Virus record (IMG/VR): IMGVR_UViG_3300009488_000049
Coordinates: 1 to 31,805 of that record
From: a virus
Length of the DNA: 31,805 bases
Direction: 5' to 3' (one strand)
The translations under genes were made by a program, and so were the position numbers. Shown piece by piece: positions 1-29,689 of the stretch; position 1 is the first letter of the stretch, and each line of letters opens with the position of its first letter. The notes below the pieces were generated by a model that ran no database searches, was not told the DNA's origin, and saw only the letters and a list, made by a program, of their open reading frames with translations.

Positions 1-458
1 AAGACCTTGACAGGCTGGTGCGCCAGTTCAACGTGGAATCATGCGTCATAGATGCCCAGCCAGAGACCAGAAAGGCCATCGAGTTCGCACAGAGACACAA
101 GCGCAAGGTGAGGGTCTGTTACTACGATACGAACCCGAAAGAGAAAGACCTTTGGAAATCCGGCAAGGATGGCCTTACAATAAACGCCCAGAGGACACTG
201 GCGATGAGCCACGTCTTCGCCCAGTTCAGTCGTTCCCGGGTGGCTCTACCGAGGGATGCAGAGCGCATCCCCGGGTTCTATGAGCAGATGATGTCCCCAC
301 AGTTGGTCTATCGTGAAGACAAGACCACCGGGGAGAAGAGGGCGGCATATCCAAAGACCATGAAACCGGACCACTTTTACCATGCCTGCGTCTATGAGAT
401 GCTTGCCCGTCGTCAGATTCCGGCATCGGTACGGGTACACCGGAGGGGATGGACCTAA
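1..458 (+). CDS. terL: Terminase large subunit, C-terminal nuclease part (5' truncated)
   Basis: The reading frame is open to the left edge, so this is the C-terminal end of a longer protein; the GTG at 18 is internal. The visible part fits the RNase H-like nuclease domain of large terminases. An acidic VIDAQPET segment after a short strand is followed by a basic helix (AQRHKRKVR), and the C-terminal KPDHFYHACVYEMLA segment matches the acidic/aromatic motif seen at the end of many TerL proteins. TerL pumps DNA into the procapsid and cuts the concatemer. The ATPase half lies outside the window. The stop overlaps the portal start as TAATG, and terminase followed by portal is the usual order. 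Family is assigned from motifs and position only. Confidence 0.85.
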   Translation, partial: DLDRLVRQFNVESCVIDAQPETRKAIEFAQRHKRKVRVCYYDTNPKEKDLWKSGKDGLTINAQRTLAMSHVFAQFSRSRVALPRDAERIPGFYEQMMSPQLVYREDKTTGEKRAAYPKTMKPDHFYHACVYEMLARRQIPASVRVHRRGWT

Positions 459-2098
459 TGCCGCACCCCAGTCCTGAGATGCAGAGAGCCTATTTCAGGG
501 GCTCCGAAACTGCCGGTGCCAGCCTTCGCCGGGTCATCAGCGCACCTCAATTCGATGGCAAGTCGCTGAAAACAATCCACGACACCATCATGAAGATGAT
601 TGACCAGTACAAGTCGCAGAGAGACACCCATCTCCAGCGGAACTGGTCGTTCTTCCACGGCAATAGCGCCCCCTATGTCCAACCGTTTGAAGGTGAGACA
701 CAGCAGGAGTTCCAGCGCCGTCTCGCGAAACTCTACGAAGCAAACCGTGTGGGGCCAATCTGCGAGAAGATGGCCGGGTATCTCTATGGCCGGGCAGATG
801 AAATCATCAGGCGATGTGAAGACCCCGAGGCCCAGAAGTACATGCTTCGCGTGTGGGAATATAACGACATGCGCGAGGGCTCTCTCATGCTCGATACGGC
901 GACAATGGCTATCGTATCAGGCTTTGCACCTCTCCTGCCGAAGTTCGTGGATGAGCGTACCGACGAGCCATTCGAAGGAGCGTCTTTCGAAAGCCGCAGA
1001 AAATACGGCATCATCAAATACGTCCTGATGGATGCCACCCATGCGATGCTTCTCCCCAGCGTCAGAGATGCCCGGAAACTGGGTGCGATCATCCTGACAT
1101 ACTACGATGACAATATCTCCGGCGTATCAACCCTTGAGCGATTCGCCATGGGAGAAAGTTCGTACAGACGCGATATGGTAATCGAGTATATCGACGACAC
1201 TTACTGGCTCCGGTGGACAGACGGTGGGAAGAAACTGGAGAATGTGAACGACGGTAATCGTGCCCTCACGAACAAGAACTTCTACACCGATGTCAAAGTA
1301 CCATTCGTGATCTTCCGTGAAGGTGGAGACCCGATGCTACTTGAGGGGTCGGGGCTTCCTGAAAGCATCTGGGGATTGAACCTGAAACTGAACGAACGCC
1401 TCACTGACGATGGTCTCACCATCACGAACAATGCTCTGCCGATTCTCAAAATCCTCGGGGCACAACTCCCATCTAACTTCAGACGCACTCCGAACACGAT
1501 TCTGGAACTGGTTGGTGATGGAGGAGGCGAACGGCCTGATGCCGAATATCTGACGTGGGATGGTGAACTCACTGCATCGCATAAGCACGAAGACAAGATC
1601 ATGAAACTCATCGACGACATGGCAAGTATGAGTGCCGTGGACTGGGGAGACACACAGGCTCTCGGGCAGGTGAGGTCGGCAGATGGCATCCGTGCGGCTA
1701 CACGGGCGTCTCAGGAAGGCACGAACCGCAGAAAGCGGCGGTTCATAGAGGCCGAGAAGTGGCTCATTCGTTCGTCACTCATCATGCGTGAAGTTCACAC
1801 GATGGAGGCGTTTGAATCATACAGGGCCGAGATAAAATTCCCCGACTTCATCACCCCGACTGATCTGTCTCAGGCACAGACCGAACAGATTGAACTGGTC
1901 AGCGGGCAGGAATCACTGGAAGATTACGTCAAAGAGAACTACCCCGATCTCGCGACGGAAGAGGAAATCAACGCGAAGGTCGAGGAACTGAAAAAGACCA
2001 TCGAGTTCCTCCGCGGCTCTCAGCCGGGACTCAAGGACAACCCGCTTTCACCGGAGGAACGTGGGTCACAGCAGACGAAACCGGGAGTGAGTAAGTAG
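458..2098 (+). CDS. Portal protein
   Basis: A large protein directly after terminase and before scaffold and capsid, the standard portal position. The portal forms the dodecameric ring through which DNA enters and to which the tail joins. Its length (546-549 residues) is normal for portals. Visible features are an N-terminal alpha-helical part, a segment KMAGYLYGRADEI resembling the portal core, and an acidic C-terminus. Two starts are possible: ATG at 449, only two bases after GGAGG, and ATG at 458, which forms TAATG with the terminase stop and has better spacing. I chose 458 because the same coupling recurs in this genome. The exact portal family is not clear by eye. Confidence 0.82.
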   Translation: MPHPSPEMQRAYFRGSETAGASLRRVISAPQFDGKSLKTIHDTIMKMIDQYKSQRDTHLQRNWSFFHGNSAPYVQPFEGETQQEFQRRLAKLYEANRVGPICEKMAGYLYGRADEIIRRCEDPEAQKYMLRVWEYNDMREGSLMLDTATMAIVSGFAPLLPKFVDERTDEPFEGASFESRRKYGIIKYVLMDATHAMLLPSVRDARKLGAIILTYYDDNISGVSTLERFAMGESSYRRDMVIEYIDDTYWLRWTDGGKKLENVNDGNRALTNKNFYTDVKVPFVIFREGGDPMLLEGSGLPESIWGLNLKLNERLTDDGLTITNNALPILKILGAQLPSNFRRTPNTILELVGDGGGERPDAEYLTWDGELTASHKHEDKIMKLIDDMASMSAVDWGDTQALGQVRSADGIRAATRASQEGTNRRKRRFIEAEKWLIRSSLIMREVHTMEAFESYRAEIKFPDFITPTDLSQAQTEQIELVSGQESLEDYVKENYPDLATEEEINAKVEELKKTIEFLRGSQPGLKDNPLSPEERGSQQTKPGVSK

Positions 2099-2100
2099 AC

Positions 2101-2340
2101 GTGACAGGACTGGTCGTTTCGTTTTTCGAAGAGAAGGGCTTCGGGTTTATCCGCGAAGAGAACGCCCCCGATGGGCATATCGGAACCATCTTCTTTCACC
2201 ATTCCGATGTACTCAGGACCGAGGGACGTTACATTGGTTCTGAGCAGGTGTTCGAGAAAGACGTGGAATTTGACCTCGAAGAAACCCCGGAAGGGCGTCA
2301 TAGGGCTCGTAACATAAGGGTGGTAAACAATGGCAGGTGA
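2101..2340 (+). CDS. Cold-shock-domain protein
   Basis: A 79-residue GTG-start protein beginning two bases after the portal stop. It has the features of a cold-shock OB-fold: a G-x-V-x-x-F start, RNP1 KGFGFI at about residues 12-17, RNP2 IFFHHSDV at 30-37, and a C-terminal VEFDLEETPEGRHRARNI strand. Such domains bind single-stranded RNA or DNA and act as RNA chaperones or antiterminators. The position between portal and scaffold is odd for a regulatory protein. Its stop overlaps the scaffold start by 11 bases, so it is co-translated with virion proteins. Domain assignment is confident; the role in the virus is unknown. It could be a late-gene regulator or assist packaging. Confidence 0.85.
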   Translation: MTGLVVSFFEEKGFGFIREENAPDGHIGTIFFHHSDVLRTEGRYIGSEQVFEKDVEFDLEETPEGRHRARNIRVVNNGR

Positions 2341-3145
2341 ACGCTGGCGGGAAAAACTGGCTGAAGGTAAAAGCCTCACCATCGAAGACGCGAAGGCGAT
2401 AGTCACAGAGATGCTCGGTGGATTCGCTCTCATGGACAAAGAGGGCGAGGATTACATCAAACTCAAGGAGGCTGGCCGAGACCTCGTGAAACTCCGCGGT
2501 GAACTGGACAAGGCCGGTGGGTCTGACGTGCTGAAGTGGCTCTCGGAGAACAAGGACAACATGGAGTTGTTCGAGGAGGCGCTGAAGAAGAAAAAGGATG
2601 GCGCACCAGAGCCGTCCGCTGATGTCGTGGGCCTCAAGGCTTCCATCGAGGAACTCCAGACCACTATCAAGAACATGGACGAGGAGTCGAAAAAGAAGTC
2701 AGATCAGTTCGCGACTGACACTCTTCACCAGAAAACCAGAACTCGCATCGCAGAGATGTTGACAGATGCCGCGGCTGAAGGTATTGTCATCGAAGATGCC
2801 TTCCTGAAGCCCTGCCTGACAGACGAGGTTGTGGCTGAAATGGCGAAGGCAATCGAGCAATCCGATACGGAGTTCGGCACGTTGCTCGGTGAAAAGGTCG
2901 TCAAACCCGCGTTTACGAATCAGCAGGAGGCGCTGACGAGACTCGGGGTAGCAAGTACGGGCGTTGAGGGCGGTGAGTCAACGGTGGTCATCCCCGGCTC
3001 CACCCCCGGACCTGAAGGTACTCCCTTCAACCGGGGAATCGGAAGACTGGGGGTGCAAACGCAACCCACCGAGGCGGTCAGTTGGGCCGGTATGATGGGT
3101 CCAGACCTCATCAATCCTCAGTTGCAGAAGAAGGCTGAGGAGTAG
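2330..3145 (+). CDS. Scaffold-like protein
   Basis: A 271-residue, highly charged, helix-rich protein immediately upstream of the capsid gene. Residues about 25-130 are rich in Lys, Glu and Leu with heptad-like spacing, including a KKKKD stretch, as expected for a coiled-coil scaffold that templates procapsid assembly and is then lost. The C-terminal third becomes Gly/Pro/Thr-rich. No protease motif is evident, so whether it is cleaved cannot be judged. The ATG overlaps the end of the cold-shock gene in another frame. The call rests on position and composition rather than a specific motif. Confidence 0.7.
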   Translation: MAGERWREKLAEGKSLTIEDAKAIVTEMLGGFALMDKEGEDYIKLKEAGRDLVKLRGELDKAGGSDVLKWLSENKDNMELFEEALKKKKDGAPEPSADVVGLKASIEELQTTIKNMDEESKKKSDQFATDTLHQKTRTRIAEMLTDAAAEGIVIEDAFLKPCLTDEVVAEMAKAIEQSDTEFGTLLGEKVVKPAFTNQQEALTRLGVASTGVEGGESTVVIPGSTPGPEGTPFNRGIGRLGVQTQPTEAVSWAGMMGPDLINPQLQKKAEE

Positions 3146-3170: not shown

Positions 3171-4130
3171 ATGCCCGTAACAGGATATGGCGACCTTTTC
3201 GGCCTCAGTGCCGCGATGGTCAAGGGTTCCTCTCTTTCCCTGACGCAGTGGGCTCCAGCGGTAATGCGGTATGCAAAGGACCGCTACGTCTGGGCTCAGT
3301 ATCTTCCCTTCCGCGAGGAACTCGGGAAGAAAAAGGGAGACACCATCCGTGTACCCATCTACGAGTGGCTCAGTACCTACGGATCGGCCATTCCGGCAGG
3401 AACTACGGTTCCGATGGGTTCTCAGGACATCACCTCGTTCACCGTCACTCTCGATGAAATCGGTCGAGGGCTGGCGCTCGAACACACCGTCGATTACTAC
3501 AGCAACATCGCGAACCAACAGCAGTTGCTCATGACGCTCGCGGACAACTGGGCGAATACATGGGACTACTTCTGCTCTCTGGTCTTCACCAGCGGCCAGT
3601 GGTACATGTCGCAGGTGGCGGCTGGATCGTTCACGCAGGGTTCCGGTCAAGGTGGTGGAGTAGGTGCCGGGACGTTGCTGGGAACGAAGTTGCTCGACGG
3701 TGCCACGATTGACCGCGTGTACGATGTCCTCCGTGCCGCGAAGACACCGAAGTTCCCCGATGGCTATTACCGTTGGCTCTCCAACGCGAAGACCATGCGT
3801 GGCCTGAAGGAGGACGTGGGCCGGAAGAACTTCGAGTATTACAACAACGACGGCATGGGCATCAAGCAACAGATCATCGGGGTCTACGGCGGGTTCGTGT
3901 TCGTCGAGACCGAAGAGAACATGACCAACGGCCTCAGCGAGGCATTCGGGCAGAACTGCGGGGTACAGGCCGCAGGAATGCCGATGGAGATTCGATACGA
4001 GCCGAACTACCAGACCGACTTCGGTCGGGTGCAGGCGTGGGCGTACCTCGCCATCATGGGCACGGCAGAGGCTCTCATCGACACCGGAACGTATGGCATC
4101 CGGGTTTACAGCCATTACGTCTCGGTTTAA
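3171..4130 (+). CDS. Major capsid protein, resembling the N4-gp56 family
   Basis: A 319-residue protein that probably forms the HK97-fold shell. The N-terminus has the GYGDLF motif (residues 5-10), like the YGD-S start common in N4-gp56-type capsid proteins. This is followed by a long helix (APAVMRYAKDRYVW), then GKKKGDTIRVPIYEWL and a GTTVPMGSQDI segment that fits the usual E-loop/spine region. It follows the scaffold and has a GGGAG ribosome site. A strong hairpin follows the stop. The same N-terminal motif recurs in a 42-residue minus-strand peptide at 27610-27738. Assignment is from pattern and position. Confidence 0.82.
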   Translation: MPVTGYGDLFGLSAAMVKGSSLSLTQWAPAVMRYAKDRYVWAQYLPFREELGKKKGDTIRVPIYEWLSTYGSAIPAGTTVPMGSQDITSFTVTLDEIGRGLALEHTVDYYSNIANQQQLLMTLADNWANTWDYFCSLVFTSGQWYMSQVAAGSFTQGSGQGGGVGAGTLLGTKLLDGATIDRVYDVLRAAKTPKFPDGYYRWLSNAKTMRGLKEDVGRKNFEYYNNDGMGIKQQIIGVYGGFVFVETEENMTNGLSEAFGQNCGVQAAGMPMEIRYEPNYQTDFGRVQAWAYLAIMGTAEALIDTGTYGIRVYSHYVSV

Positions 4131-4525: not shown

Positions 4526-5242
4526 ATGGATAATCAGGGTATCACCCTCTGCATGGTGGTCAGGAACGCTGAAGACCGGCTGACCGACCTCCTACCTCGC
4601 GTTGCACCCCTCGTGGATGAAATCGTCGTAGTAGATCAGCAATCGACGGACAGGACCGTCAAAGTGCTGGAGAAACACGGCGCACGAGTGGTCTCTTCAA
4701 CTCCGAAGGGATATGCAGACCCCGACAGGGACTACTGCTATTCCCTTGCAACGCAGGACTGGATACTCGCGATGGACCCGGATGAGACCCTCGATGCAGA
4801 CCTGAATGCCAACATCCGCGAGATGGTGAAAGACCCGAACATCGACCTGTACTGGTTCCTGTTCGAGAACACCATCGACGATGTAGACATCAGTCACATC
4901 CTCGGCCCAGACCCACATCCGCGTCTCTGGCGGCGTCTTCTGCCAGACGGCACACCGAATGTCAGATGGCCCGCACAGGCCCACACGCTACCGGCCATCG
5001 CATCCTCTCGCGTCTGTTATGTCGAGAAGGGTCGCTTCATCCACGCAAGAACGATGGAAGAGGTACGCAAATCTCACGAGGATCGGGCGACAGTTGTAGA
5101 CCCGAAGGCTCTCGCTGAAGAAAAGAAGTTCCTCGAAGAGGTGGAGAAAGCACTGCAACAGGCTTCCCTTGCTGGCAAAGTATCAGGCGCGAAACCGCAT
5201 GAAGTGGACCTGAAACCACGGCCAGTAGGGAAGCGCCCATGA
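4526..5242 (+). CDS. Glycosyltransferase, GT-A (family 2-like)
   Basis: A 238-residue protein with a GT-A fold signature. A beta-strand with a nucleotide-binding start (ITLCMVVRNAEDRL, residues 6-19) is followed by DEIVVVDQQSTDRT at 31-44, the UDP-sugar binding strand, and by a metal-binding DxD-like LAMDPDE at 81-87. The pattern resembles WaaE/KdtX-type transferases that add sugars to surface glycans. The C-terminus is a Lys/Glu-rich helix. It is the first gene of the sugar island and overlaps the next gene by ATGA. Donor and acceptor cannot be read from sequence. There is no signal peptide or membrane helix, so it should act in the cytoplasm. Confidence 0.88.
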   Translation: MDNQGITLCMVVRNAEDRLTDLLPRVAPLVDEIVVVDQQSTDRTVKVLEKHGARVVSSTPKGYADPDRDYCYSLATQDWILAMDPDETLDADLNANIREMVKDPNIDLYWFLFENTIDDVDISHILGPDPHPRLWRRLLPDGTPNVRWPAQAHTLPAIASSRVCYVEKGRFIHARTMEEVRKSHEDRATVVDPKALAEEKKFLEEVEKALQQASLAGKVSGAKPHEVDLKPRPVGKRP

Positions 5243-6435
5243 AGATATTACTCTCTCGTTTCGGTGGCATCGGTGATGGGTCAATCCTCACCCCCGTAGC
5301 CCGGGAACTCACCCGCAGAGGACATGAAGTACATATCACCGTGCCCCTCAATCAGGTGAAACTGTTCGATAATCTACCTGAATGTTTCGCAGAGGTACAC
5401 GGAGCCACACGGTTCAGAGGCTTTCAGGACTGCATCAAATGGAAGTGGGGCTATACATCCATCGAGGCGGTAAAGGATGAATTCAATATCACGATGGGTG
5501 AGAAAGCACCGGAGTTCGTTCCACTCGACTACAAATACTCCATTGAACTCAACGCCCATCCTGATTATCACGGCAGAGCCGACTTCATGGGTCACTGGTT
5601 ACGTTCACAGAACTCAAATTTCCAGAACTGGGTAGACCTTTCATTCGGCTGGGCAGGTATCGACCCGACAACTATTCCAGACGAGGACAAGATTCCCGTC
5701 TACCGCGAAGAAACTCCCGAGAAGAACTGGGTCAGCCGTCTCCTGCGGAAAGCATCGAAGCCAATCATCGGCATCCACGGGTTCGCTTCCAGCCAGAGCA
5801 GAACATATATGAGGCATGAGGATGTGGCCCGCCTCATGATTGAGGAATACCCGACAGCAACCATCCTGCACTGGGTAGGGAATGAGTGGGTAATGGGAAA
5901 CAAGGCAGGATTTGAGGTGCTGACACTTCCTGAACCGGGCCCCGACCCGAAGAAACAGGATCAGCACCCCAATGCGATGCGCCACACCGTCTCGATGATG
6001 AAATGGATGGACCTGCTCATCTGCGCCGACAGTGCTTTGAGTCATTACGCACCCGCTGTGGGAACGAAGTGCATCACGCTCTACACAACCGTCCCTCCGT
6101 GGACACGGATGAAATATTATCCCCTTACTACATCTCTGGTGGGCGATGTTCAATGTCATCCCTGTTTCAATCTCGGGAAATTCTGCCCTCTGAACCAGAT
6201 TCGTGCCGAAGACACTCTTTCCGACCGCGAGAAGAAGATGTTCGCTCTCGAACAGCAAGGTCTTAAACCCCCACAGGCGGCTCACGAGATGGAAACCCAT
6301 GTAGAGGGTCTCAATCACGAATATAACGCCGCTAGACAGCGTATGGAGGGCATAGCGGGCATGAACCCCGACTGTGTGAAGGCAATCAAACCGGAAACGA
6401 TTGTCGAGGCCGCAAAGGAGATTCTCAATGGATAG
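5239..6435 (+). CDS. Glycosyltransferase family 9-like (heptosyltransferase-like) protein
   Basis: A 398-residue two-domain GT-B protein. The N-terminal Rossmann domain starts MKILLSRFGGIGDGSILTPV, the glycine-rich signature of the ADP-heptose:LPS heptosyltransferase family. The C-terminal domain has DLLICADSALSHYAPAVGTKCITLY, matching the family's donor-site region, and a CHPCFNLGKFC cluster often seen in family-9 relatives. Known members transfer heptose or similar sugars to lipid A core or related acceptors. Here the gene lies in a phage virion module, so the acceptor may be a capsid or tail protein. It overlaps the upstream gene by ATGA and the downstream gene by eight bases. Confidence 0.85.
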   Translation: MKILLSRFGGIGDGSILTPVARELTRRGHEVHITVPLNQVKLFDNLPECFAEVHGATRFRGFQDCIKWKWGYTSIEAVKDEFNITMGEKAPEFVPLDYKYSIELNAHPDYHGRADFMGHWLRSQNSNFQNWVDLSFGWAGIDPTTIPDEDKIPVYREETPEKNWVSRLLRKASKPIIGIHGFASSQSRTYMRHEDVARLMIEEYPTATILHWVGNEWVMGNKAGFEVLTLPEPGPDPKKQDQHPNAMRHTVSMMKWMDLLICADSALSHYAPAVGTKCITLYTTVPPWTRMKYYPLTTSLVGDVQCHPCFNLGKFCPLNQIRAEDTLSDREKKMFALEQQGLKPPQAAHEMETHVEGLNHEYNAARQRMEGIAGMNPDCVKAIKPETIVEAAKEILNG

Positions 6436-7264
6436 GCCACAGGTAATCTATCGCGACTTTCAGCGGTTCATCAACATCAGGGAAACGGAGAAATGCCATC
6501 CCCAGACCCTCCATGTCCACCTTCTGGGGTATGATGAAGCCCGCAGTCGAGAACTTATTCTGCCGTGGACCGGAGAAGATGGCTTGCGGGCGCTCATGTC
6601 TGACTTCAAAATAAGAAATGGTGAACAGGTCATCTTCGATGGGCCGGGAGATTATGAACATGACCCGCAAAACTACAAGCACCTCGAAGTGGCTGTTGAG
6701 TATGCGCGGAATACGAGCCTCCGCGTTGGAGTGGTTTCGTTCGCTACGGAACTGGATTTCTCACATGGCGTGTGGGATTACGCGGAGGTTCTCATCCCTG
6801 CGGATACTATTGAAGGTTGGCATGAGGTCGTGGGTGGTGAACCTGTCACTGACCGAAGACGGCGCTGGAATTATCCGTGGGAACATACGGGTGCTACATG
6901 CCGACTGGTGGGGCGGTTTACTGCGGAAAAAGCGGATGGGAAGACCATTGTGGCGTTCTCTGCTCGACACGGCAACTTCGACTCCTATCGAATTGGAGCG
7001 CCGGATTACCCTGTTTCGGACCCGGACTTCACAACTTGCCGATATCAGTGGTTCCATCCCTGCATTGACCCACGCGGAGATATTTGGCCTTGTCCCGCAA
7101 CGATGGACACTCGGGCTCTGGGAAATCTGGGATACATGCGATTCAAAGAAAGGTGGCCGACCCACAATACGATTCCCCTTCAGGATTGTCCTCGGTGGGT
7201 CGAGGGTGCCTGTCCCTACGCCCAGCAAAACCAAATCCTCCACCACGTCGTTACCGAGGTATAG
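6428..7264 (+). CDS. SPASM-like protein lacking the radical-SAM cysteine triad
   Basis: A 278-residue protein. The C-terminal part has five cysteines at 204, 212, 222, 254 and 262 in the order C-x7-C-x9-C, then LGN, then C-x7-C, as in SPASM auxiliary cluster domains (DPRGDIWPCP, ALGNL). The N-terminal half resembles a radical-SAM barrel in strand order but has only one cysteine (23) where CX3CX2C would be expected. It is therefore probably not a functional radical-SAM enzyme, or it uses only the SPASM cluster. ATG at 6428 is chosen because AGGAG lies eight bases upstream and it overlaps the previous stop. Function is unknown; the setting suggests a sugar or protein modification role. Confidence 0.7.
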   Translation: MDRPQVIYRDFQRFINIRETEKCHPQTLHVHLLGYDEARSRELILPWTGEDGLRALMSDFKIRNGEQVIFDGPGDYEHDPQNYKHLEVAVEYARNTSLRVGVVSFATELDFSHGVWDYAEVLIPADTIEGWHEVVGGEPVTDRRRRWNYPWEHTGATCRLVGRFTAEKADGKTIVAFSARHGNFDSYRIGAPDYPVSDPDFTTCRYQWFHPCIDPRGDIWPCPATMDTRALGNLGYMRFKERWPTHNTIPLQDCPRWVEGACPYAQQNQILHHVVTEV

Positions 7265-7309
7265 AGACGGCTTCTATGACTTCCTCAGCGGCGACTACGG
7301 TCCACCGGA

Positions 7310-7981
7310 ATGAGTAAAGTCCTCACGGTCCTCGTCCCATTCTTCAACCAGCATGAGTATCTCGACTTCTGTCTGGAAAGAACAGGAGATTGGATGGAGG
7401 TGCTGGTAACAGACTTTGGGAGCGACAAACCACCCGATATCTCTGCATATCCGTGGGTTGATCTCCATGTCGGGCCAGCGATCCACGGCCCCGGGGCAAT
7501 ACCGGCACAGTTGAACTACGGTGTTGAGAACACTGAAGGTGAAGTCATCGTCTGGGTGCCTGCCGACAATGCTTTGAATGCCATGCAATACTTCCCGGCC
7601 ATCCTGAACATGCTCGACACCTATGATATCATCTACTCGGACATGCTCTACATCGACGACGACGGGAAGTTTCTGGGACAGAGAGTAGTCCCTGATTACA
7701 AATTCCATTTCTGCTTCGATTCCTACGAACTGGGCGTGAGCATCTGGTACAGGAGAGACCTTCATGAGCGATTCGGTATGTTCGACCCAGATTTTCAGGT
7801 GCATGACTACGAATGGCTCTTACGTTGCGCTATGGGAGGAGCCACTTTCTATCATCTCCCCCTTCCGTACTACGTCTATCGGGAACACACCAAAAGACCC
7901 ACGGGAAGTTGGGAACCGGAGAGAGAGAAAGTCATGCTGGAACAGTCAGCCCTACTGAGCAAGCGGGCAAAGGAGTTCTGA
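7310..7981 (+). CDS. Glycosyltransferase, GT-A (family 2-like)
   Basis: A 223-residue GT-A protein. It has a hydrophobic start strand VLTVLVPFFNQHEYL (residues 4-18), VLVTDFGSDK (31-40) as the donor-binding strand, a VWVPADN segment (81-87) in place of the metal-binding DxD, and a late acidic HDYEWLLRCA segment where the catalytic base of family-2 enzymes usually lies. It is shorter than typical family-2 proteins but complete. The ribosome site is weak. Its stop overlaps the next start as TGATG. Donor and acceptor cannot be predicted. Confidence 0.83.
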   Translation: MSKVLTVLVPFFNQHEYLDFCLERTGDWMEVLVTDFGSDKPPDISAYPWVDLHVGPAIHGPGAIPAQLNYGVENTEGEVIVWVPADNALNAMQYFPAILNMLDTYDIIYSDMLYIDDDGKFLGQRVVPDYKFHFCFDSYELGVSIWYRRDLHERFGMFDPDFQVHDYEWLLRCAMGGATFYHLPLPYYVYREHTKRPTGSWEPEREKVMLEQSALLSKRAKEF

Positions 7982-8418
7982 TGCCATCCCTGAGAATAGT
8001 CGGCATGGCCCTCCACGGAAGCATCTATGATGCTGAATACTTCAACAGCCCCACGATTCAGATGATAGAGGGAACATGCGAAACTTCTGACTTTGAAGCG
8101 GAGAATATCGAGCAGGAGGTTCGTATAACAGTTGACACTCTTCCCACACTCACAATTTTCATCGAAGACTCGGTGCTTCATCCTCAGACGTATGCAGTCG
8201 GAGTCGAACCGGGCATGAAGATAGTGATAATCAACCGAATCGTCATGACACCGTGGCTGGAAGATGAAGTTGCTGAAACAATTCGCAGATATATCAGGAA
8301 CAGGTATAACAATGCCCAACGCTACATAGAAGACGGGTGCCTTCTGATAGACCTGCTTCCATTCATCGAGAACGCCGAAAAGGTCGTATTTCCAAAGCGA
8401 GAGGAACCGAAGGCATGA
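7981..8418 (+). CDS. Protein of unknown function in the sugar island
   Basis: A 145-residue protein that starts with TGATG coupling to the preceding transferase and ends with ATGA coupling to the next, so it belongs to the same translated unit. I do not recognise a family. The N-terminal third has beta-like strands (LRIVGMALHG) and the middle holds alternating hydrophobic strands (EVRITVDTLPTLTIFIED and MKIVIINRIVM). The C-terminal third is helical, with NRYNNAQRYIEDGCLLIDLL. There is no signal peptide or membrane helix. It may be an accessory subunit or acceptor protein of the glycosylation unit, but nothing in the sequence proves that. Confidence 0.72.
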   Translation: MPSLRIVGMALHGSIYDAEYFNSPTIQMIEGTCETSDFEAENIEQEVRITVDTLPTLTIFIEDSVLHPQTYAVGVEPGMKIVIINRIVMTPWLEDEVAETIRRYIRNRYNNAQRYIEDGCLLIDLLPFIENAEKVVFPKREEPKA

Positions 8419-9140
8419 AGGACATCGTACTGATTATCCCCCATTATGGCGACGATTCCGACCTGCGGCAGTGCAAGGCCAGCCTCAAAGGTGTCGATGG
8501 GATGGACCGGGTAAAGGTGGTGGTCATCGACAACAATAAGAACAATGTGGGATATACGAAGGCGGTGAACAGAGGAATCAGAGAAAATCCCGGTATGGCC
8601 TTTTATTGGTTGCTGAATAATGATACGATTGTGCAGAAGAAAACACTGGCCGAACTCCTCCGGGCGATGAAGAAATACCCGAAGGTGGGAGTTGTGGCGA
8701 GTCAACTCCTCGACATGAAGAATCAGGACATCATCGTCTGGGGGGGCTCGAAGCAGGTCATACCCGGCATCCACAAGTCGGGAAGCGTGAATCTCGGCCA
8801 GTTACAGGAACCGACATACGAGAGGTGGGCGACCTTTGGGAGCGTCCTGCTCAGGGCAGAGATGGTACATGAAGTGGGCCTGCTCGATGAGCGGTACTTT
8901 CTCATCTGCTCCGATTCCGATTACTGTTTCACCATGCGGAGCCGGGGCTGGAAGGTTCTTCACTGGCCTGCCAGTAAGGTCTTCCACGACGAACAAGAGG
9001 GCGTATCCAGAGCGGCAAACACAAAGCGGTCGGACAAGGTTACGAAGATTCTTATGGACGACCAGCGAAAGTTTGCTGACAAATGGATGAACGGGCGGCT
9101 ATTTATGGAGTTGGAATCAGAAGTAGACACTCCAGCGTGA
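8415..9140 (+). CDS. Glycosyltransferase family 2 (rhamnosyltransferase-like)
   Basis: A 241-residue GT-A protein starting at ATG 8415, which overlaps the previous stop (ATGA). Motifs follow family-2 order: DIVLIIPHYGDD (residues 3-14), VKVVVIDNNKNNVGYTKAVNRG (33-54), in which VGY-x-x-AVNRG is typical of rhamnosyltransferase-like members, and WLLNNDTIV (65-73) with the NND metal site. LLDERYFLICSDSDYCFTMR follows, the acidic region near the active site. Such enzymes add deoxyhexoses or similar sugars to growing glycans. It closes the sugar island before the connector genes. Confidence 0.88.
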   Translation: MKDIVLIIPHYGDDSDLRQCKASLKGVDGMDRVKVVVIDNNKNNVGYTKAVNRGIRENPGMAFYWLLNNDTIVQKKTLAELLRAMKKYPKVGVVASQLLDMKNQDIIVWGGSKQVIPGIHKSGSVNLGQLQEPTYERWATFGSVLLRAEMVHEVGLLDERYFLICSDSDYCFTMRSRGWKVLHWPASKVFHDEQEGVSRAANTKRSDKVTKILMDDQRKFADKWMNGRLFMELESEVDTPA

Positions 9141-9151
9141 GGTGAGCCAAA

Positions 9152-9925
9152 ATGCCCGGAACGCCCGGCACCTACGGATACTGCGTCCCCTCGGATTGCG
9201 ATACCCTCCTTACCGGCTTCATTGAGAACTACTACGGCACTGGAACACAGGGCACATCCGACGCTGAAGCCGATATCAATGCCGAGTTCAGGCGCATGAA
9301 TGATCGCTTCGAGGGATTCTCGATGGTTAAAAGCGTCCCTCTACCCCTTGAAGGTTCTACCTATCCCCAGACAATCGTAGATGCCAATGCTTCGTGGACC
9401 GTCTTCAGGCGTCTCAGGGCTGTCCATGCCGCGGAGTTCAACGAAGGTGTTCCCGAGTGGATTTCACGATTCGAGGATATGGGGAATGAATATCTCGATG
9501 AAATCCGTACCGGAAAGGTGGTCTTTGAGTCATTCACAGCCCTCGGTGAGGTAGGTATAGGGATGCCTGCCGCTGGTACGGGCACAGATTCAACCGGCAC
9601 ATTCTTCAACAACTGGGAAGGCTTTGCCGGGCCGTTCTGGGGCGACAGGCGTATGAACTGGCGAGTTGAGATAGAATCCGATGGAAGCACAGGTATCTCA
9701 ACATTCAAATATTCCATCGACAAGGGTGCTTCGTGGATGGAGACAGGTGTGAAGACGGGCACCGGCTGGATAGGCATAGGCTACGGGGTCAATGTCCGGT
9801 TCGAGGGGTGGGACGGAACCGCCTTCGCGGATGGTGATTACTGGGACTTCGAGACCGTCCCTGCATGGGTAACTGCCTATGGAGACCCGGGCATCGTGAA
9901 GGTGAGAGAGGGAGTACGAGGGTGA
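9152..9925 (+). CDS. Probable head-tail joining or neck-region structural protein
   Basis: A 257-residue protein with a GAGGTGA ribosome site, placed just before the tail-completion gene. The N-terminal half is helical, with a YYGTGTQGTSDAEADINAEFRR segment, and the C-terminal half is Gly/Thr-rich and beta-like (GSTGISTFKYSIDKGASWMETG), resembling a small carbohydrate-binding or fibre domain. I do not recognise a family. The position suggests an adaptor that may also carry a surface domain. The stop overlaps the next GTG start. Confidence 0.6.
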   Translation: MPGTPGTYGYCVPSDCDTLLTGFIENYYGTGTQGTSDAEADINAEFRRMNDRFEGFSMVKSVPLPLEGSTYPQTIVDANASWTVFRRLRAVHAAEFNEGVPEWISRFEDMGNEYLDEIRTGKVVFESFTALGEVGIGMPAAGTGTDSTGTFFNNWEGFAGPFWGDRRMNWRVEIESDGSTGISTFKYSIDKGASWMETGVKTGTGWIGIGYGVNVRFEGWDGTAFADGDYWDFETVPAWVTAYGDPGIVKVREGVRG

Positions 9926-17409: not shown

Positions 17410-17784
17410 ATGGGACGGGCCGTAGATTTAGGAGATATCAGGAAGCGTCGGGATAAATGGTTCGAGCAGGCGAGACAGTTCGACGCGGCAAGGAACCAGA
17501 AGAAAGCCCAACTCGAAGCCGTCGAGGAAGAAGTAAAGAGCCTCGGAGAGGATAAACTCGGGGCAATCAGTAGATGGTTGGAACTCAACGATCTTCTCGC
17601 AGATATGGACCCCGATGGCGAAGAGGCGAAGATGAGAGCCCAGAACGGCCCTCAGACGCCCAATCTCCCCGGAGACGAGGAAACACCCCCGGAAGACGAG
17701 AAAGTGCCGGATACCCCCGCTGGCGGCTCTCCACCGGCCCAAAAGAAGGTAGCCTCGAAGAAGACTGCGAGTAAGAAGGGGTGA
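17410..17784 (+). CDS. Coiled-coil protein with basic C-terminal tail
   Basis: A 124-residue protein. Residues about 5-70 are charged and helical (RKRRDKWFEQARQF, LEAVEEEVKSLGED), resembling a coiled coil. A Pro/Glu/Asp-rich linker follows (about 75-105), then a basic end (KKVASKKTASKKG). That layout, helix then acidic linker then Lys tail, is common in small virion-associated or assembly proteins. No specific family is recognised. The stop overlaps a GTG start for a short reading frame. Confidence 0.65.
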   Translation: MGRAVDLGDIRKRRDKWFEQARQFDAARNQKKAQLEAVEEEVKSLGEDKLGAISRWLELNDLLADMDPDGEEAKMRAQNGPQTPNLPGDEETPPEDEKVPDTPAGGSPPAQKKVASKKTASKKG

Positions 17785-22664: not shown

Positions 22665-22859
22665 ATGAATTATCAGCACAGCACTTCGAATGGGGATTGT
22701 ATCTGTTTGAAGTGCAATTTCTCATGGCCTGCAAGAGTACCTCATAGGCCGATAAGATGCCCCAACTGCAAAAGTCCCAACTGGTACATAGGCCCGGCGC
22801 TCTGGCGCTGGCCCGGAAGGAGAAAACGCGGTGGATATCAGCGTAATCGGTCTCGGTAA
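22665..22859 (+). CDS. Zinc-ribbon protein
   Basis: A 64-residue protein with two CX2C pairs: CLKC at residues 15-18 and CPNC near 32-35, a typical zinc ribbon of about 20 residues. The C-terminal part is basic and Trp-rich (WYIGPALWRWPGRR). Zinc ribbons of this kind are often nucleic-acid or protein-interaction domains. Its promoter is directly upstream, so it is the first gene of the sugar-nucleotide unit. The next gene's GTG start overlaps its last codons. Function unknown. Confidence 0.7.
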   Translation: MNYQHSTSNGDCICLKCNFSWPARVPHRPIRCPNCKSPNWYIGPALWRWPGRRKRGGYQRNRSR

Positions 22860-24192
22860 ACTAGGTGCCTGCTTCGCCGCGGCGGCGGGAAAGAAGGGTT
22901 ACAAGGTCATCGGCATGGATGTAAATGACCATGCCGTTGAACTCATCAACAAAGGGATTCCCCACATTCAGGAGCCCGGGTACGATATGGAACTGGAGTT
23001 CGCCCGGAATCAAGGCTATACTGCAACCACCTCTATGGAGGAGGCGGTTCTGGGTTCGGACATCACGTTCATAGTGGTCCCGACCCCCAGTGACGCAGAT
23101 GGCGCGTTCTCACTCTCATATCTGAGGCAAGCCCTCGGAGAGATTGGTCGGGCAATCAATCTCAAGAGTACCTACCATCTCGTCGTGGTGGTCTCCACGG
23201 TCCTCCCGGGCTCCTGCCGCTATGCCCTCATACCAACTCTCGCCGCTGAGTGCCCGGACAAGAATCTGGGGGTGCATTACGGGTTCTGCTATTCCCCCGA
23301 GTTCGTCGCTCTGGGAACGGTCATCAGAGACCTTGTAAGGGCTGATATGCTTCTCATCGGCTCATACGACGAGAAATCAGCCGGGACTCTCCTATCGTTC
23401 TATGCGGAGTTCATGGAGTGCATTCCACGCATCCACACGATGTCTCTGGAGAATGCTGAACTGGTCAAGATCGCTGTCAATTCATTCATCACGGCGAAGA
23501 TATCATTCGCCAACGCCCTCTCGCTGGCCTGTTCACGTATCCCCGGGGGGAACGTGGATATCGTCACGAATGCCATCGGAGATGATTCACGCATCGGCAG
23601 GAAGTTCCTCAAAGGAGGTCTGGGATTTGGTGGGCCATGCCTGCCGCGGGACAACAAGGCTCTCGCCTTCCTGTTTGATGAACTGGGCGTCCCCGGCGAT
23701 ATCGCCACAGCCACCGATGCGGTGAATATGAATATCCCTGAAGAAGTTCTCCGTATAGCCCAGAAGCGTATTCCCATCATCGAAGAAACACTTGTCGCAC
23801 TGGTCTGCGGCATCTCCTACAAGCCGGGAACAACCGTCTGCGAGGAATCACAGGGCGTCGAAATAGCGAACCGATTCAGTAAGGCTGGGGTACAGGTGAG
23901 CATCCTTGATATTGATGCTGATGCACTCCAGATGAATGAACTCGATAGCGATATCGGGATTCAGGTGTTCACCGGCTTCGGGCTCAAGGAATATAAACTC
24001 GTAGTCATCGCAACCCCGGATGAGGTCTGGAAGAAGATGAAGCGCGAGTGGTTCGACCCCGATGCGGTCATCATCGACTGCTGGCGCATCCTGCCCGAAG
24101 AGTTCCATGATATGCCGGGATATGTGGCTCTGGGAGTCAGCGACATACCGTTCGGTGACTCACATCTTGAGGAGGTCTGGAGAAACCGATGA
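22831..24192 (+). CDS. UDP-glucose/GDP-mannose dehydrogenase family protein
   Basis: A 453-residue protein with the complete family layout. It has an N-terminal Rossmann dinucleotide-binding motif GLGKLG (7-12), a central helical dimerisation part and catalytic Cys 270 in FGGPCLPRDN. A C-terminal Rossmann-like UDP-binding domain has CGISYKPGTTVCEES. Family enzymes oxidise UDP-glucose, UDP-N-acetylmannosamine or GDP-mannose to the uronate in two NAD-dependent steps. The specific donor cannot be read from the sequence. The start is GTG with GGAG eight bases upstream. It supplies an activated uronic acid, possibly to the glycosyltransferases at 4526-9140. Confidence 0.9.
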   Translation: MDISVIGLGKLGACFAAAAGKKGYKVIGMDVNDHAVELINKGIPHIQEPGYDMELEFARNQGYTATTSMEEAVLGSDITFIVVPTPSDADGAFSLSYLRQALGEIGRAINLKSTYHLVVVVSTVLPGSCRYALIPTLAAECPDKNLGVHYGFCYSPEFVALGTVIRDLVRADMLLIGSYDEKSAGTLLSFYAEFMECIPRIHTMSLENAELVKIAVNSFITAKISFANALSLACSRIPGGNVDIVTNAIGDDSRIGRKFLKGGLGFGGPCLPRDNKALAFLFDELGVPGDIATATDAVNMNIPEEVLRIAQKRIPIIEETLVALVCGISYKPGTTVCEESQGVEIANRFSKAGVQVSILDIDADALQMNELDSDIGIQVFTGFGLKEYKLVVIATPDEVWKKMKREWFDPDAVIIDCWRILPEEFHDMPGYVALGVSDIPFGDSHLEEVWRNR

Positions 24193-24995
24193 ATGTAGAC
24201 CTCAGCCACTTCAGGAACTTCGATCACACGATAGACAATATAGATGCTTTCATCTCCGAGATATCCGTCTACATCGTCAGGGTGATAAATGGATACATCC
24301 CTCCTCCCGAGAAAGAAATGCGGCTCATCAATGCGTTCGTACAGGAGGGAAATAGGTGCATCGACGTGGGAGCGCACTACGGCTACTACACCGTCCCGTT
24401 CTCAAGCAAGGTCGGCCCGACAGGCTCGGTTATATCATTCGAGCCATATCCCACCAACTATGAAGTTCTCACAAGAATCATCGAGAATCTCAAATTGACG
24501 AACGTCACCACTATCAACGCGGCTCTTTCCGATTATGAAAGCACTGCCGAGATGGAGATTCCTCCCATCGGACACAGGTGGAGAGACGAGCATGGTCTTC
24601 CCTATGGCCTAGCCCGATTCTCCAGCGATGAAACGTGGGTAGGTAGAGAGACAGTCGAGGTCGAGAAGTATGACGATCTGGAGATTGCTGAAATACCCAT
24701 CCATTTCGTCAAAATCGACGTTGAGGGGGTCGAGTATGATGTGGTGAAGGGGATGTACGAGTCCCTGAGACGCTTCCAGCCAATCGTACAGGTCGAAATC
24801 GAGGAAAGGCACCTCACAGACAGCGAGAGGCCCGCAAACGCCATTCTGGGGCTTCTGGGAGAAATCGGGTATGGTGCCTACACATATTTCGACGGATTAC
24901 TGGAACGTGGGGTCGAGCGGGTGGAAGAAATCAGCAAGGATGAGAACAATTACATCTTCATCACACCGAAAAGGGCAGAGGAACTCGGACTATGA
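24189..24995 (+). CDS. FkbM-family methyltransferase
   Basis: A 268-residue SAM-dependent methyltransferase of the FkbM group. Motif I is CIDVGAHYGYYTVPF (about 57-71), followed by GSVISFEPYPTNYEVL and NVTTINAALSDYES, and HFVKIDVEGVEYDVVKGM (about 176-193), the conserved acidic motif of the family. Known members methylate sugar hydroxyls in glycan and antibiotic pathways. It overlaps the upstream gene by ATGA and the downstream gene by ATGA. Here it probably O-methylates a sugar in the phage glycan. Confidence 0.88.
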   Translation: MNVDLSHFRNFDHTIDNIDAFISEISVYIVRVINGYIPPPEKEMRLINAFVQEGNRCIDVGAHYGYYTVPFSSKVGPTGSVISFEPYPTNYEVLTRIIENLKLTNVTTINAALSDYESTAEMEIPPIGHRWRDEHGLPYGLARFSSDETWVGRETVEVEKYDDLEIAEIPIHFVKIDVEGVEYDVVKGMYESLRRFQPIVQVEIEERHLTDSERPANAILGLLGEIGYGAYTYFDGLLERGVERVEEISKDENNYIFITPKRAEELGL

Positions 24996-25957
24996 AGCGG
25001 ATACTGGTAACAGGCGCAGGCGGGTTCATAGGTCATCATCTCTGCAAATATCTCAAAGAGATCGAGGAGTGCTACGTCATCGGGGTGGACATCAAGGAAC
25101 CTCTCTTCGAGGATACCGCCGCCGATTTCTTCATCCTGCATGACCTGAGACAGCCATACCTCTACGGAGCCGAGTTATACGATAAACTGGGCAAGGTAGA
25201 TGAAATATACCATCTGGCCGCTGATATGGGGGGGATCGGCTACATCACCTCGAAATTGGCTGATATCGCCATCAACAACTCCCTCATCAACATCAACATC
25301 TTCAAATATGCGAAAGAGGTGGGAGCAAGGATTCTCTTCTCATCCTCGGCCTGCGTCTACTGCCAGTCAGCACAGGACAGACCGAATATCAGGCCATTGA
25401 TGGAATGCGATGCATGGCCTGCGATGCCAGAACCCGGATATGGTCTTGAGAAACTCTATGCAGAGGAACTCCTGAGTTATCTGTTCAACGATCACCATCT
25501 CAGTGTCCGTATCGCTCGATTTCACAATGTCTACGGACCTCTCGGAGAATACGATGGAGGCAGGGAAAAGGCACCAGCGGCCCTCTGCCGCAAGATTGCC
25601 CGGGCCAAACCCGGAGGGACTATTGAGGTCTGGGGAGACGGAAAGCAGACGCGCTCGTTCATGTATATCGACGACTGCGTTGAAGGGATTCACCGGCTGA
25701 TGGCATCTGATTTCGTTCTCCCGATGAATCTCGGGCGCGATGAGATGATATCCATTAACGAACTCGTTCATATGATATCCCTCATCGCAGACAAGCCGGT
25801 AGGCATCATCAACGATCTCACGAAACCGGAGGGCGTCAGGGGACGTAACAGCGACAATAGCCTCTGTCGAGGCGTTCTGGACTGGGAGCCTCCGACGACT
25901 CTCATGACCGGCCTCAAGCCCACCTACGAATGGATTATGAGGCAGGTATCAGGGTGA
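24992..25957 (+). CDS. GDP-mannose 3,5-epimerase-like NAD-dependent epimerase
   Basis: A 321-residue extended SDR epimerase. It has the NAD-binding GAGGFIG motif (8-14) and Cys 121 in SSSACVYCQ, which matches the catalytic cysteine of GDP-mannose 3,5-epimerase. The Tyr 150/Lys 154 pair lies in GYGLEK, with RFHNVYGPLGEYDGGREKAPAAL after it. The last pattern closely resembles GDP-mannose 3,5-epimerase, which converts GDP-mannose to GDP-L-galactose and related sugars. This makes GDP-sugars likely substrates for this block. Other SDR epimerases remain possible. Confidence 0.85.
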   Translation: MKRILVTGAGGFIGHHLCKYLKEIEECYVIGVDIKEPLFEDTAADFFILHDLRQPYLYGAELYDKLGKVDEIYHLAADMGGIGYITSKLADIAINNSLININIFKYAKEVGARILFSSSACVYCQSAQDRPNIRPLMECDAWPAMPEPGYGLEKLYAEELLSYLFNDHHLSVRIARFHNVYGPLGEYDGGREKAPAALCRKIARAKPGGTIEVWGDGKQTRSFMYIDDCVEGIHRLMASDFVLPMNLGRDEMISINELVHMISLIADKPVGIINDLTKPEGVRGRNSDNSLCRGVLDWEPPTTLMTGLKPTYEWIMRQVSG

Positions 25958-26823: not shown

Positions 26824-26977
26824 TGACTGCTTCTCCTGTCAGGCGTTTGACGGCATCCTCCACGATGGCCTCGAATGTCTCTTCCTTGCAGACACACGCG
26901 GCCTGAAACGGCGTGGGAAGCCGGTGATTCAGGTTCAATCCACCAGAGTAGCCATCATACCAGAAGTCTTCTCTCAT
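26810..26977 (-). CDS. Small hypothetical protein
   Basis: A 55-residue protein. ATG at 26977 overlaps the previous TGA (ATGA), which decides it over a longer frame starting at 27007 that would overlap by 34 bases. The N-terminus is aromatic (DFWYDGYSGGLN) and the C-terminus is helical (ETFEAIVEDAVKRLTGEA). No family is recognised. Confidence 0.6.
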   Translation of the reverse strand: MREDFWYDGYSGGLNLNHRLPTPFQAACVCKEETFEAIVEDAVKRLTGEAVSESR

Positions 26978-27603
26978 GTCATCATTCCAGTGCTTTTGAA
27001 GCCCCATCCGCGTTCGATGACGCGCTTCTCAGTTGGCACCCAATACGGTGTATCCTTCAACCACCGATACCAGAACTCGAAGGCCATCCCTTCCAACTGG
27101 TACTGCTGGTAATCGAACCATGCCATGTAGGCCATCTTCGCCGGGTTCGCATCTCCATCTATCTTGTCGGCCAGTTCGGGCATCTGGCGGTACTTGATGA
27201 CGGTTGTGCGATAATCACTACATCCTAACCATCCCCAGTTCAACTGGGAAGTGTAAATCTCATCGAGGTCACGCACACAGAACACAACCGCGAGGTTCTT
27301 CTCCTCTGCCAGCCGGTGAGCCCAGTACGAGATACCAGCCGATTGCACCACGATCCCCTTCAATTCCTTTCCGGCTGGGCCGATGAGTTTCAGGAAAGGA
27401 TCGGGGTTCGCGAGAGCCTTCTGCACGTCTTCAGGCCACAGGTTTCCATCTGATTTGATGTCGAGTTCATCAAGAAAGCGGTATTTGAGTTCCTTCGCGA
27501 TTATCTTCGCCGCGATAGTGGTTCCTGACCTCTGGGGGCCGGTCACGAGGATGCGTGAGAAGGCGCGTAGTGCTTCCAGCAGGTCTTTGAGGTTCTCGAG
27601 CAT
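26974..27603 (-). CDS. P-loop protein, sulfotransferase- or kinase-like
   Basis: A 209-residue protein. A phosphate-binding loop TGPQRSGTT is at residues 21-29, preceded by a hydrophobic strand (FSRILV). The PQRSGTT form is typical of sulfotransferases and some nucleotide kinases. Downstream, VVFCVRDLDEIYTSQL has the strand plus Arg-Asp pattern found in sulfotransferase-like folds. Such enzymes transfer sulfate from PAPS or phosphate between nucleotides. No second diagnostic motif for either is clear. In this context sugar sulfation would be possible, but the gene sits in the early operon. It is followed by an ATGA-coupled gene. Confidence 0.7.
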   Translation of the reverse strand: MLENLKDLLEALRAFSRILVTGPQRSGTTIAAKIIAKELKYRFLDELDIKSDGNLWPEDVQKALANPDPFLKLIGPAGKELKGIVVQSAGISYWAHRLAEEKNLAVVFCVRDLDEIYTSQLNWGWLGCSDYRTTVIKYRQMPELADKIDGDANPAKMAYMAWFDYQQYQLEGMAFEFWYRWLKDTPYWVPTEKRVIERGWGFKSTGMMT

Positions 27604-27609
27604 GTCCTG

Positions 27610-27738
27610 TTACCTTTTCTTCGATTTCTTCTTCCTAGACGCCTTCTTCTTCGCCATTTGCTCGGGAATCATCGTCCCAGCCTTGATTGTCTCGGCAGAG
27701 ATGGCGAACAGGTCTCCGTATCCGCGCTGAGGAGTCAT
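27610..27738 (-). CDS. Capsid N-arm-like 42-residue peptide with basic tail
   Basis: A 42-residue minus-strand frame from ATG 27738, which overlaps the previous stop (ATGA), to TAA at 27612-27610. Residues 6-20 read GYGDLFAISAETIKA and align with residues 5-19 of the capsid protein at 3171 (GYGDLFGLSAAMVKG): nine identical positions of 15, and four more conservative. The end is strongly basic (KKKASRKKKSKKR). The capsid motif is probably the N-terminal arm. The peptide may be a decoy, assembly modulator or DNA-binding helper. It is in the early operon, not beside the capsid gene. Confidence 0.7.
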   Translation of the reverse strand: MTPQRGYGDLFAISAETIKAGTMIPEQMAKKKASRKKKSKKR

Positions 27739-28262: not shown

Positions 28263-28715
28263 CTACTCCTCGATTCTGGTCAGTGCTGATGAGGGTATCA
28301 ACAGCACCTCTTCTGTTTCGTTGGTAGAGCCTTCCCGCTGGATATTGCGTTTGATTACGCGCCCCTTCGATGGCTCCATATTACTCAGCGTGATGGAAAA
28401 GATGCCATCGGTGAACTCGAAGAACACAAGCACAGGGCAGTTATGCGCGATTCCGCTGTTTTTGAGGCGATAATAGCGTTTAAGAGAGAAAATGATGCCT
28501 CCCGGGGCGTCAAATTCGGTCGAAATGCAGTTGCGGTATTTGTATTCACCCAGATAGTCGATTTGACCTTCTCGCCAGATTTCCCAATCGTGGTGGGAGA
28601 ACTGACCGCACTCCATCACCTCAAACTCTTCCCCGAGGTAGGCACCGACCTTCTGGCGGGCCAGTTCCTCCCGTTTCCGGTCTTCCTCGGTCTCCAGATG
28701 CCTCGGTATGGGCAT
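28263..28715 (-). CDS. PD-(D/E)XK-like nuclease candidate
   Basis: A 150-residue protein. The middle has D43 in HHDWE and then E57-x-K59 in YLGEYKYR, which fits the D-x(n)-E-x-K core of the PD-(D/E)XK nuclease fold; the following strand is VLVFFEFTDGIFSITL. The N-terminus is a charged helix (EEDRKREELARQKVG). The fold includes restriction and repair nucleases. TGATG couples it to the upstream gene. The motif is short and common, so confidence is moderate. It may cut host DNA or process phage DNA. Confidence 0.55.
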   Translation of the reverse strand: MPIPRHLETEEDRKREELARQKVGAYLGEEFEVMECGQFSHHDWEIWREGQIDYLGEYKYRNCISTEFDAPGGIIFSLKRYYRLKNSGIAHNCPVLVFFEFTDGIFSITLSNMEPSKGRVIKRNIQREGSTNETEEVLLIPSSALTRIEE

Positions 28716-29008
28716 CAGCGCCGCCGTTTTCCTCTGTCGTGCGGGCCACTCCGGTCCCTGAACGGGTTTGGGGCTTCGGGAATGGGCAACTTCTCCATCT
28801 CGTCGGAGAATTTCTCCTGTTCAGTTCTCTCGCGGAACTTGCCATCCTCGGTGACGATGTAGATTTTACCCCTCTTCGTCGTCACACGGCTTCCCGGCTT
28901 GTGAATCGCGATGGTGAGGATGTCCGGGTCATCGAACGCGGCCTGTATCTCCTCGGCGGTCACTTTGGGGATGAGTTTCTCTTCACCGAATCTATCTGTC
29001 GTCTGCAT
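28715..29008 (-). CDS. Small charged protein of unknown function
   Basis: A 97-residue protein with ATG 29008, chosen over GTG 29011 because GGAG lies at good spacing. It has a helical N-terminal part (IPKVTAEEIQAAFDDPD), a strand-rich middle (GSRVTTKRGKIYIVTEDGK) and a basic C-terminus (DRSGPHDRGKRRR). It overlaps the metalloprotease gene's end by 17 bases. No family is recognised. Confidence 0.6.
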   Translation of the reverse strand: MQTTDRFGEEKLIPKVTAEEIQAAFDDPDILTIAIHKPGSRVTTKRGKIYIVTEDGKFRERTEQEKFSDEMEKLPIPEAPNPFRDRSGPHDRGKRRR

Positions 29009-29459
29009 CACTTCTCCCTATCCGCATAAATGCGTATTTCAAGTCTTCGGTCATCGCCTCAACCTTCTCGGCGTGGACTTCCATTAACGCCTTGTGGGCT
29101 GGGTCGTCATCGCTGAGTAACTTACCGAGGGTATTCTCAGAGAACGATACAAGTTCATCTGTGGCTATGTGGACGAGTTCATGAATGATGTACCGTTCGC
29201 GGTCACACGCCCCCCACTGGTGCCATTCTGGACGCACATAGATTACCGCTCGACGATACCTGTAGCGCACCACCACGGTCAGGACTGTATCTCCTTCAGA
29301 TGACCCGGCCTGAGTAATCCGTAATTCCTTCAACCACGAGGGGAGTATCCCGAGCCACTTGCTGATGATGCTGTCTATCTCAACGGCTTGCTCGGAGGGA
29401 AATTCAGTGTCTATATCCACTCTGAGGGCCGAGACATTGAATTGTCTGATATTATCCAT
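28992..29459 (-). CDS. HEXXH zinc metalloprotease-like protein
   Basis: A 155-residue protein. ATG 29459 forms TGATG with the previous gene. The active-site helix has HELVH at residues 93-97, preceded by DRERYI, and a C-terminal helix with HAEKVEAMTEDL may supply a further ligand. HEXXH is the zinc motif of many metallopeptidases, including small phage- and defence-associated ones such as ImmA/IrrE or SprT-type proteins. The substrate is unknown. In an early operon it could cut a host regulator or repressor, which is inference. Confidence 0.7.
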   Translation of the reverse strand: MDNIRQFNVSALRVDIDTEFPSEQAVEIDSIISKWLGILPSWLKELRITQAGSSEGDTVLTVVVRYRYRRAVIYVRPEWHQWGACDRERYIIHELVHIATDELVSFSENTLGKLLSDDDPAHKALMEVHAEKVEAMTEDLKYAFMRIGRSDADDR

Positions 29460-29689
29460 CAGAACCACCCTTCAAACGGCATCTGGATGACACCGTGGAT
29501 TTTACATTCACCCTCCGCATGGGCTGTCATAGACGGGATGTATGCCTCCAGACAACCCATCTTCAGGTGGGCCGCTCCTGCCTTCACGAAACGGCCACAG
29601 TGGCAGATACGGAGGAACTGGGCACAGCCATGTTCCTCGAAATCGTATTGCACACGCGGGGTGCCGATGTACTCCGGGTCGCCGTACAT
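29459..29689 (-). CDS. Small Cys/His-rich protein
   Basis: A 76-residue protein with ATG 29689 in TGATG overlap with the previous gene, chosen over ATG 29743 which would overlap by 55 bases. It has cysteines and histidines in HGCAQFLRICHCGRFV and a later GECKIHG, suggesting a bound zinc. The function is unknown. It is translationally coupled to the metalloprotease. Confidence 0.6.
   Translation of the reverse strand: MYGDPEYIGTPRVQYDFEEHGCAQFLRICHCGRFVKAGAAHLKMGCLEAYIPSMTAHAEGECKIHGVIQMPFEGWF

Follow-up and report, generated by a model that had tools for sequence, protein, structure and literature searches.

A 42-residue phage protein as a tentative capsid-arm mimic: an N-arm-like segment joined to a polycationic helix

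Results

Gene content of the phage window

The DNA analysed here, referred to as the window, is a 31,805-base IMG/VR virus record from an uncultured phage. On the plus strand, the structural genes are arranged in the order terminase end, portal, probable scaffold, capsid, sugar-modifying enzymes, and tail genes that include the tape measure (Table 1). A cluster of small genes runs along the minus strand from ~31.6 kb to 27.0 kb. Near the end of this cluster, outside the structural module and on the strand opposite the structural genes, sits P0001, the gene of interest. The early expression assumed for P0001 in the preliminary description is suggested by the orientation of the gene. Within the cluster, promoter-like sites are no more frequent than expected by chance, and queries with the neighbouring P-loop-like and PDDEXK genes returned no phage with the same operon. 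The cluster also encodes a putative phage endonuclease (PDDEXK_14, 28263-28715, minus strand) and a small protein (28992-29468, minus strand) that has no family match and carries HELVH, a metallopeptidase motif of the HExxH type.

Two further groups of genes were named by eye on the plus strand. A glycosyltransferase-like cassette (4526-9140) lies directly 3′ of the capsid gene, and a similar cassette is found in the same place (6778-9381) in the record of the capsid relative L003. After the probable lysis genes, the stretch 22831-25957 holds sugar-nucleotide dehydrogenase, FkbM-like methyltransferase, and epimerase-like genes, an unusual cargo for a phage.

Table 1 Features of the window discussed in the text.
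Feature	Position	Strand	Basis or remark
P0001, 42-residue gene: capsid-arm-like N-terminal segment and basic tail	27610..27738	-	Translation, coding score, ATGA overlap
P0001 arm-like segment, residues 6-20, GYGDLFAISAETIKA	27679..27723	-	33/45 bases shared with the capsid gene
P0001 basic tail, residues 29-42, AKKKASRKKKSKKR	27613..27654	-	Lys/Arg 10/14, predicted helix
Major capsid protein, N4-gp56 type	3171..4130	+	TIGR04387, phrog_1357, position after portal
Capsid N-arm segment, residues 5-19, GYGDLFGLSAAMVKG, putatively copied motif	3183..3227	+	Precedes family core
Portal	449-2098	+	Upstream of capsid gene
Probable scaffolding protein, possible arm partner	2330..3145	+	Position between portal and capsid, charged composition by eye
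Gene upstream of P0001, 66 residues	27735..27935	-	Stop overlaps P0001 start as ATGA
P-loop-like protein (GPQRSGTT)	26974..27603	-	6 bases downstream of P0001; weak match, hypothetical-protein model only

P0001 as a probable gene

The predicted product of P0001 is MTPQRGYGDLFAISAETIKAGTMIPEQMAKKKASRKKKSKKR. Its codon score of 0.19 compares well with that of 42-codon pieces of known genes (0.20 ± 0.10). No off-frame stretch scores as high, and the antisense frame at 27383-27730 has a score of −0.01. Based on this gene-like score and on the ATGA overlap with the preceding gene, P0001 is likely to be a real gene. A longer frame, beginning 5′ of the ATG, was set aside as it overlaps the upstream gene.

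P0001 has no match in Pfam, PHROG, NCBIfam, or the PDB, in agreement with the earlier statement that no named family is known to have this design. No homologue was found among phages or plasmids, among viral contigs compared by pattern and by alignment, or in genome contigs or the records of three relatives, and the searches likewise gave no close relative of the phage. The single match among viral contigs, L026, was rejected because its DNA reveals a terminator-like hairpin that had been read as protein. To our knowledge, no named family combines a capsid-arm copy with a basic tail, and a narrow literature search retrieved no description of such a design.

The first half of P0001 resembles the capsid N-arm

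The protein encoded at 3171-4130 matches the N4-gp56 capsid model TIGR04387 over residues 18-249 (E 4e-8) with 32.8 bits, below the curated cut-off of 60; its relative L003 reaches 57.1 bits. A match to the major head protein family phrog_1357 (E 0.0012) and the location of the gene after the portal agree with its identity as the major capsid protein. The protein encoded between these two genes has no convincing match in NCBIfam, Pfam, or PHROG. The capsid protein begins with MPVTGYGDLFGLSAAMVKG. Since the family-profile match starts at residue 18, the segment shared with P0001 belongs to the N-terminal arm; this arm segment is all that the two proteins have in common, and the N4-gp56 core domain is absent from P0001.

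In the alignment of P0001 residues 6-20 with capsid residues 5-19, 9 of 15 residues and 33 of 45 bases are identical, exactly as counted by eye in the preliminary description. This match, with a Smith-Waterman score of 60, is the best among the 1225 protein pairs in the window, and the best partner of P0001 is the capsid protein rather than the probable scaffold. None of 20,000 shuffled P0001 peptides reached the same score, so that the comparison with shuffled peptides proposed earlier comes out in favor of the similarity. The pairwise E value of 6e-5 becomes ~0.07 when corrected for 1225 gene pairs, and by this measure alone the match is borderline. Evidence was therefore sought in a second genome. 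A sliding-clamp-type reading of the DLF motif was discarded: Gln is missing from the position where it would be expected, Asn replaces Asp in the arm of the relative G003, and the similarity extends as far as residue 20.

Capsid arms of related phages

Capsid relatives were taken from three records: L003 (38% identical), L004 (44%), and G003 (27%). In the arms of these capsids, the motif is clear in G003, whose capsid begins with MSDMLTPAGGYGNLFGYNVTNIRA and retains the motif as GYGNLFG, it is weak in L004, and it is missing from L003. The G003 arm scores 52-54 against P0001, whereas unrelated frames score at most 41. As a single query, this arm finds P0001 with an E value of 0.014, ahead of the window's own capsid (E 0.052), and all unrelated frames have E values of at least 2. 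In the reverse direction, the first 28 residues of P0001 match only two other places below E 2 among 4,629 open frames, and these are the two capsid arms (E 0.0044 and 0.063).

A profile built from the three capsid arms, with P0001 left out, detects P0001 at 21.3 bits (E 4.5e-5 over the 4,629 open frames), above the true capsid L003 (17.0 bits). The best shuffled frame in 40 shuffled databases (185,160 frames) reaches 11.7 bits. Within the window, only the capsid and P0001 score below E 0.2 with this profile, and profiles from other stretches of the capsid give E values below 0.01 for true capsids only. When the positions at which P0001 matches its own capsid were held fixed, it fitted the G003 arm better than 99.45% of shuffles; P0001 and this arm also have TP and I.A in common, which are missing from the window's capsid.

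Coincidence, in a phage peptide that is small and basic, would be compatible with the corrected pairwise value, with the selection of the pair by eye, and with the lack of a P0001 homologue in the collections searched. This explanation is improbable, as a query with the G003 arm places P0001 directly after the capsid of G003 itself, and the arm profile separates it from the shuffled controls. On these comparisons, P0001 and the capsid arm are very probably related, with some doubt left because the pair was chosen by eye and because the capsid arms are related to one another, which makes the tests not fully independent.

Origin of the shared segment

At the DNA level, the 33/45 match is an outlier: the next-best 45-base match to the capsid-arm DNA in the window is 26/45. 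When synonymous codons were redrawn, 28.0 ± 2.1 identical bases were expected relative to the 33 observed (p 0.016). The outlying match and the excess of synonymous agreement weakly favor a short duplication over convergence, in which P0001 and the capsid arm would each have evolved the same short helix for a common partner. Independent origin would account for a DNA similarity that is confined to 15 codons, ending abruptly on both sides with flanks at chance, and for a Ser codon that differs by two bases (TCT and AGT). It is nevertheless quite unlikely given the synonymous agreement and the additional positions that P0001 shares with G003 and not with its own capsid. The abrupt boundaries, together with the single known copy, are also what would be expected of a functionless recombination remnant, a capsid fragment dropped before a Lys-rich reading frame. 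The coding score, the ATGA overlap, and the compact operon spacing are typical of genes that are kept, and a remnant is very improbable.

Basic tail and predicted fold

As first described, P0001 ends in a Lys/Arg tail. Lys or Arg occupies 10 of the last 14 residues, making this the most basic C-terminus among window frames of at least 30 residues. A protein from the tail-gene region (17410-17784, plus strand) also has a Lys-rich end, AQKKVASKKTASKKG, similar in style. Structure prediction places the P0001 motif in one helix (residues 7-20) and the tail in a second (residues 25-41). The reliability of this two-helix prediction is moderate: the models were made from a single sequence, the mean pLDDT is 83 for the best of five (range 59-83), and the pTM is 0.39. 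A prediction of the capsid structure (pLDDT 37) was set aside. Taken with the statistics above, which exclude simple composition effects, these features support the original reading of P0001, likely a real gene, as a copy of the capsid arm with a nucleic-acid-like tail attached.

Discussion

From the sequence of P0001, we infer a function that we hold at a probability of about 0.35: the first half of this small gene would derive from a short duplication of the capsid N-terminal arm, joined to a Lys/Arg-rich helix, and the product would be a minor internal component of the head that tethers DNA. During prohead assembly, the arm-like helix may dock by mimicry, occupying an arm-binding site that either the scaffold or an adjacent capsid subunit provides. 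The basic helix would then point into the lumen and bind the scaffold or the entering DNA, and P0001 may in addition slow assembly.

In support of an internal head component are the arm-profile match with its shuffled controls, the ranking obtained with the G003 arm, and the fixed-residue result, as well as the restriction of other capsid profiles to capsids, the synonymous agreement, the coding score, and the two-helix prediction. The same proposal is weakened by the lack of a P0001 homologue in the collections searched, the modest DNA-level support for duplication, the differing Ser codon, and the confidence values of the single-sequence prediction. It is weakened further by the location of the gene outside the structural module and by the close capsid relative, L003, that lacks the motif.

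Several phage and satellite proteins offer parallels to the action proposed here for P0001. In SaPI1, the protein CpmB carries the RIIK motif of the scaffold, with which it competes (PMC5644958). Like P0001, it is a small protein with a short motif of a head-assembly protein, and it competes for a site. CpmB differs in that it copies the scaffold rather than the capsid, is encoded by a satellite, and has a dimerisation domain in place of a basic tail; P0001 has no such copy of a scaffold C-terminal motif, as its similarity is to the capsid N-terminus. Ccm of SaPIbov5 is a capsid homologue that redirects assembly (PMC8569155), a second, diverged capsid sequence acting on capsid assembly. Unlike P0001, it has the complete HK97 fold and is incorporated into pentamers; at 42 residues, P0001 is not a full-length homologue and has only ~15 arm residues. 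In T4, a short capsid targeting sequence sends internal proteins into the head (PMC3012670). There, a head-targeting segment is attached to cargo that accompanies packaged DNA, as may be the case for P0001. The T4 sequence is common to internal proteins, whereas the P0001 segment is shared with the major capsid protein, and the arm profile found no sharing among several non-capsid proteins in the window. On the features compared, P0001 does not fit the definition of CpmB, of Ccm, or of the T4 internal proteins.

Contacts of capsid N-arms have been described in other systems. In SaPIbov5 procapsids, the arms of the capsid protein touch neighbouring subunits inside the shell (PMC8569155). In P22, the coat N-arm is a helix in the procapsid, where the scaffold docks to it, and changes into an extended loop as the particle matures; a helix-loop-helix of the scaffold binds this arm (PMC9965877). 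That scaffold element is small, with two helices and basic residues, and acts at the N-arm, and P0001 is likewise predicted to have two helices, one of them basic; in contrast, P0001 resembles the arm by sequence, not the scaffold. The predicted succession of an arm-like helix and a basic helix would fit a small accessory protein at the arm site whose tail reaches into the lumen.

A free competitor would fit the two-helix layout almost as well. P0001 could act outside the head as a timing factor, made before the capsid protein and binding free capsid or scaffold to delay nucleation, with a tail that does no more than add affinity or bind nucleic acid. This proposal draws on the same sequence evidence (the arm profile, the shuffles, and the G003 arm), on the location of P0001 on the strand opposite the structural genes, and on the precedent of CpmB, which competes with the scaffold through a common short motif (PMC5644958). 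We consider it rather unlikely, as promoter-like sites near P0001 are at chance level and it leaves the very strong basic tail without any particular role.

More generally, and tentatively, P0001 may be the phage's mimic of its own capsid arm, in which a duplicated N-arm motif serves as a docking tag for a polycationic helix and either tunes assembly or tethers DNA in the head. If this is true, the phage would use a piece of its own capsid to control the assembly of its head. Such a dominant-negative-like strategy would have its closest known counterparts in satellites that redirect their helper phages. P0001 would also represent a very small natural tag for attaching cargo to capsid arms, and GYG[DN]LF would have a functional role in some arms of the N4-gp56 type.
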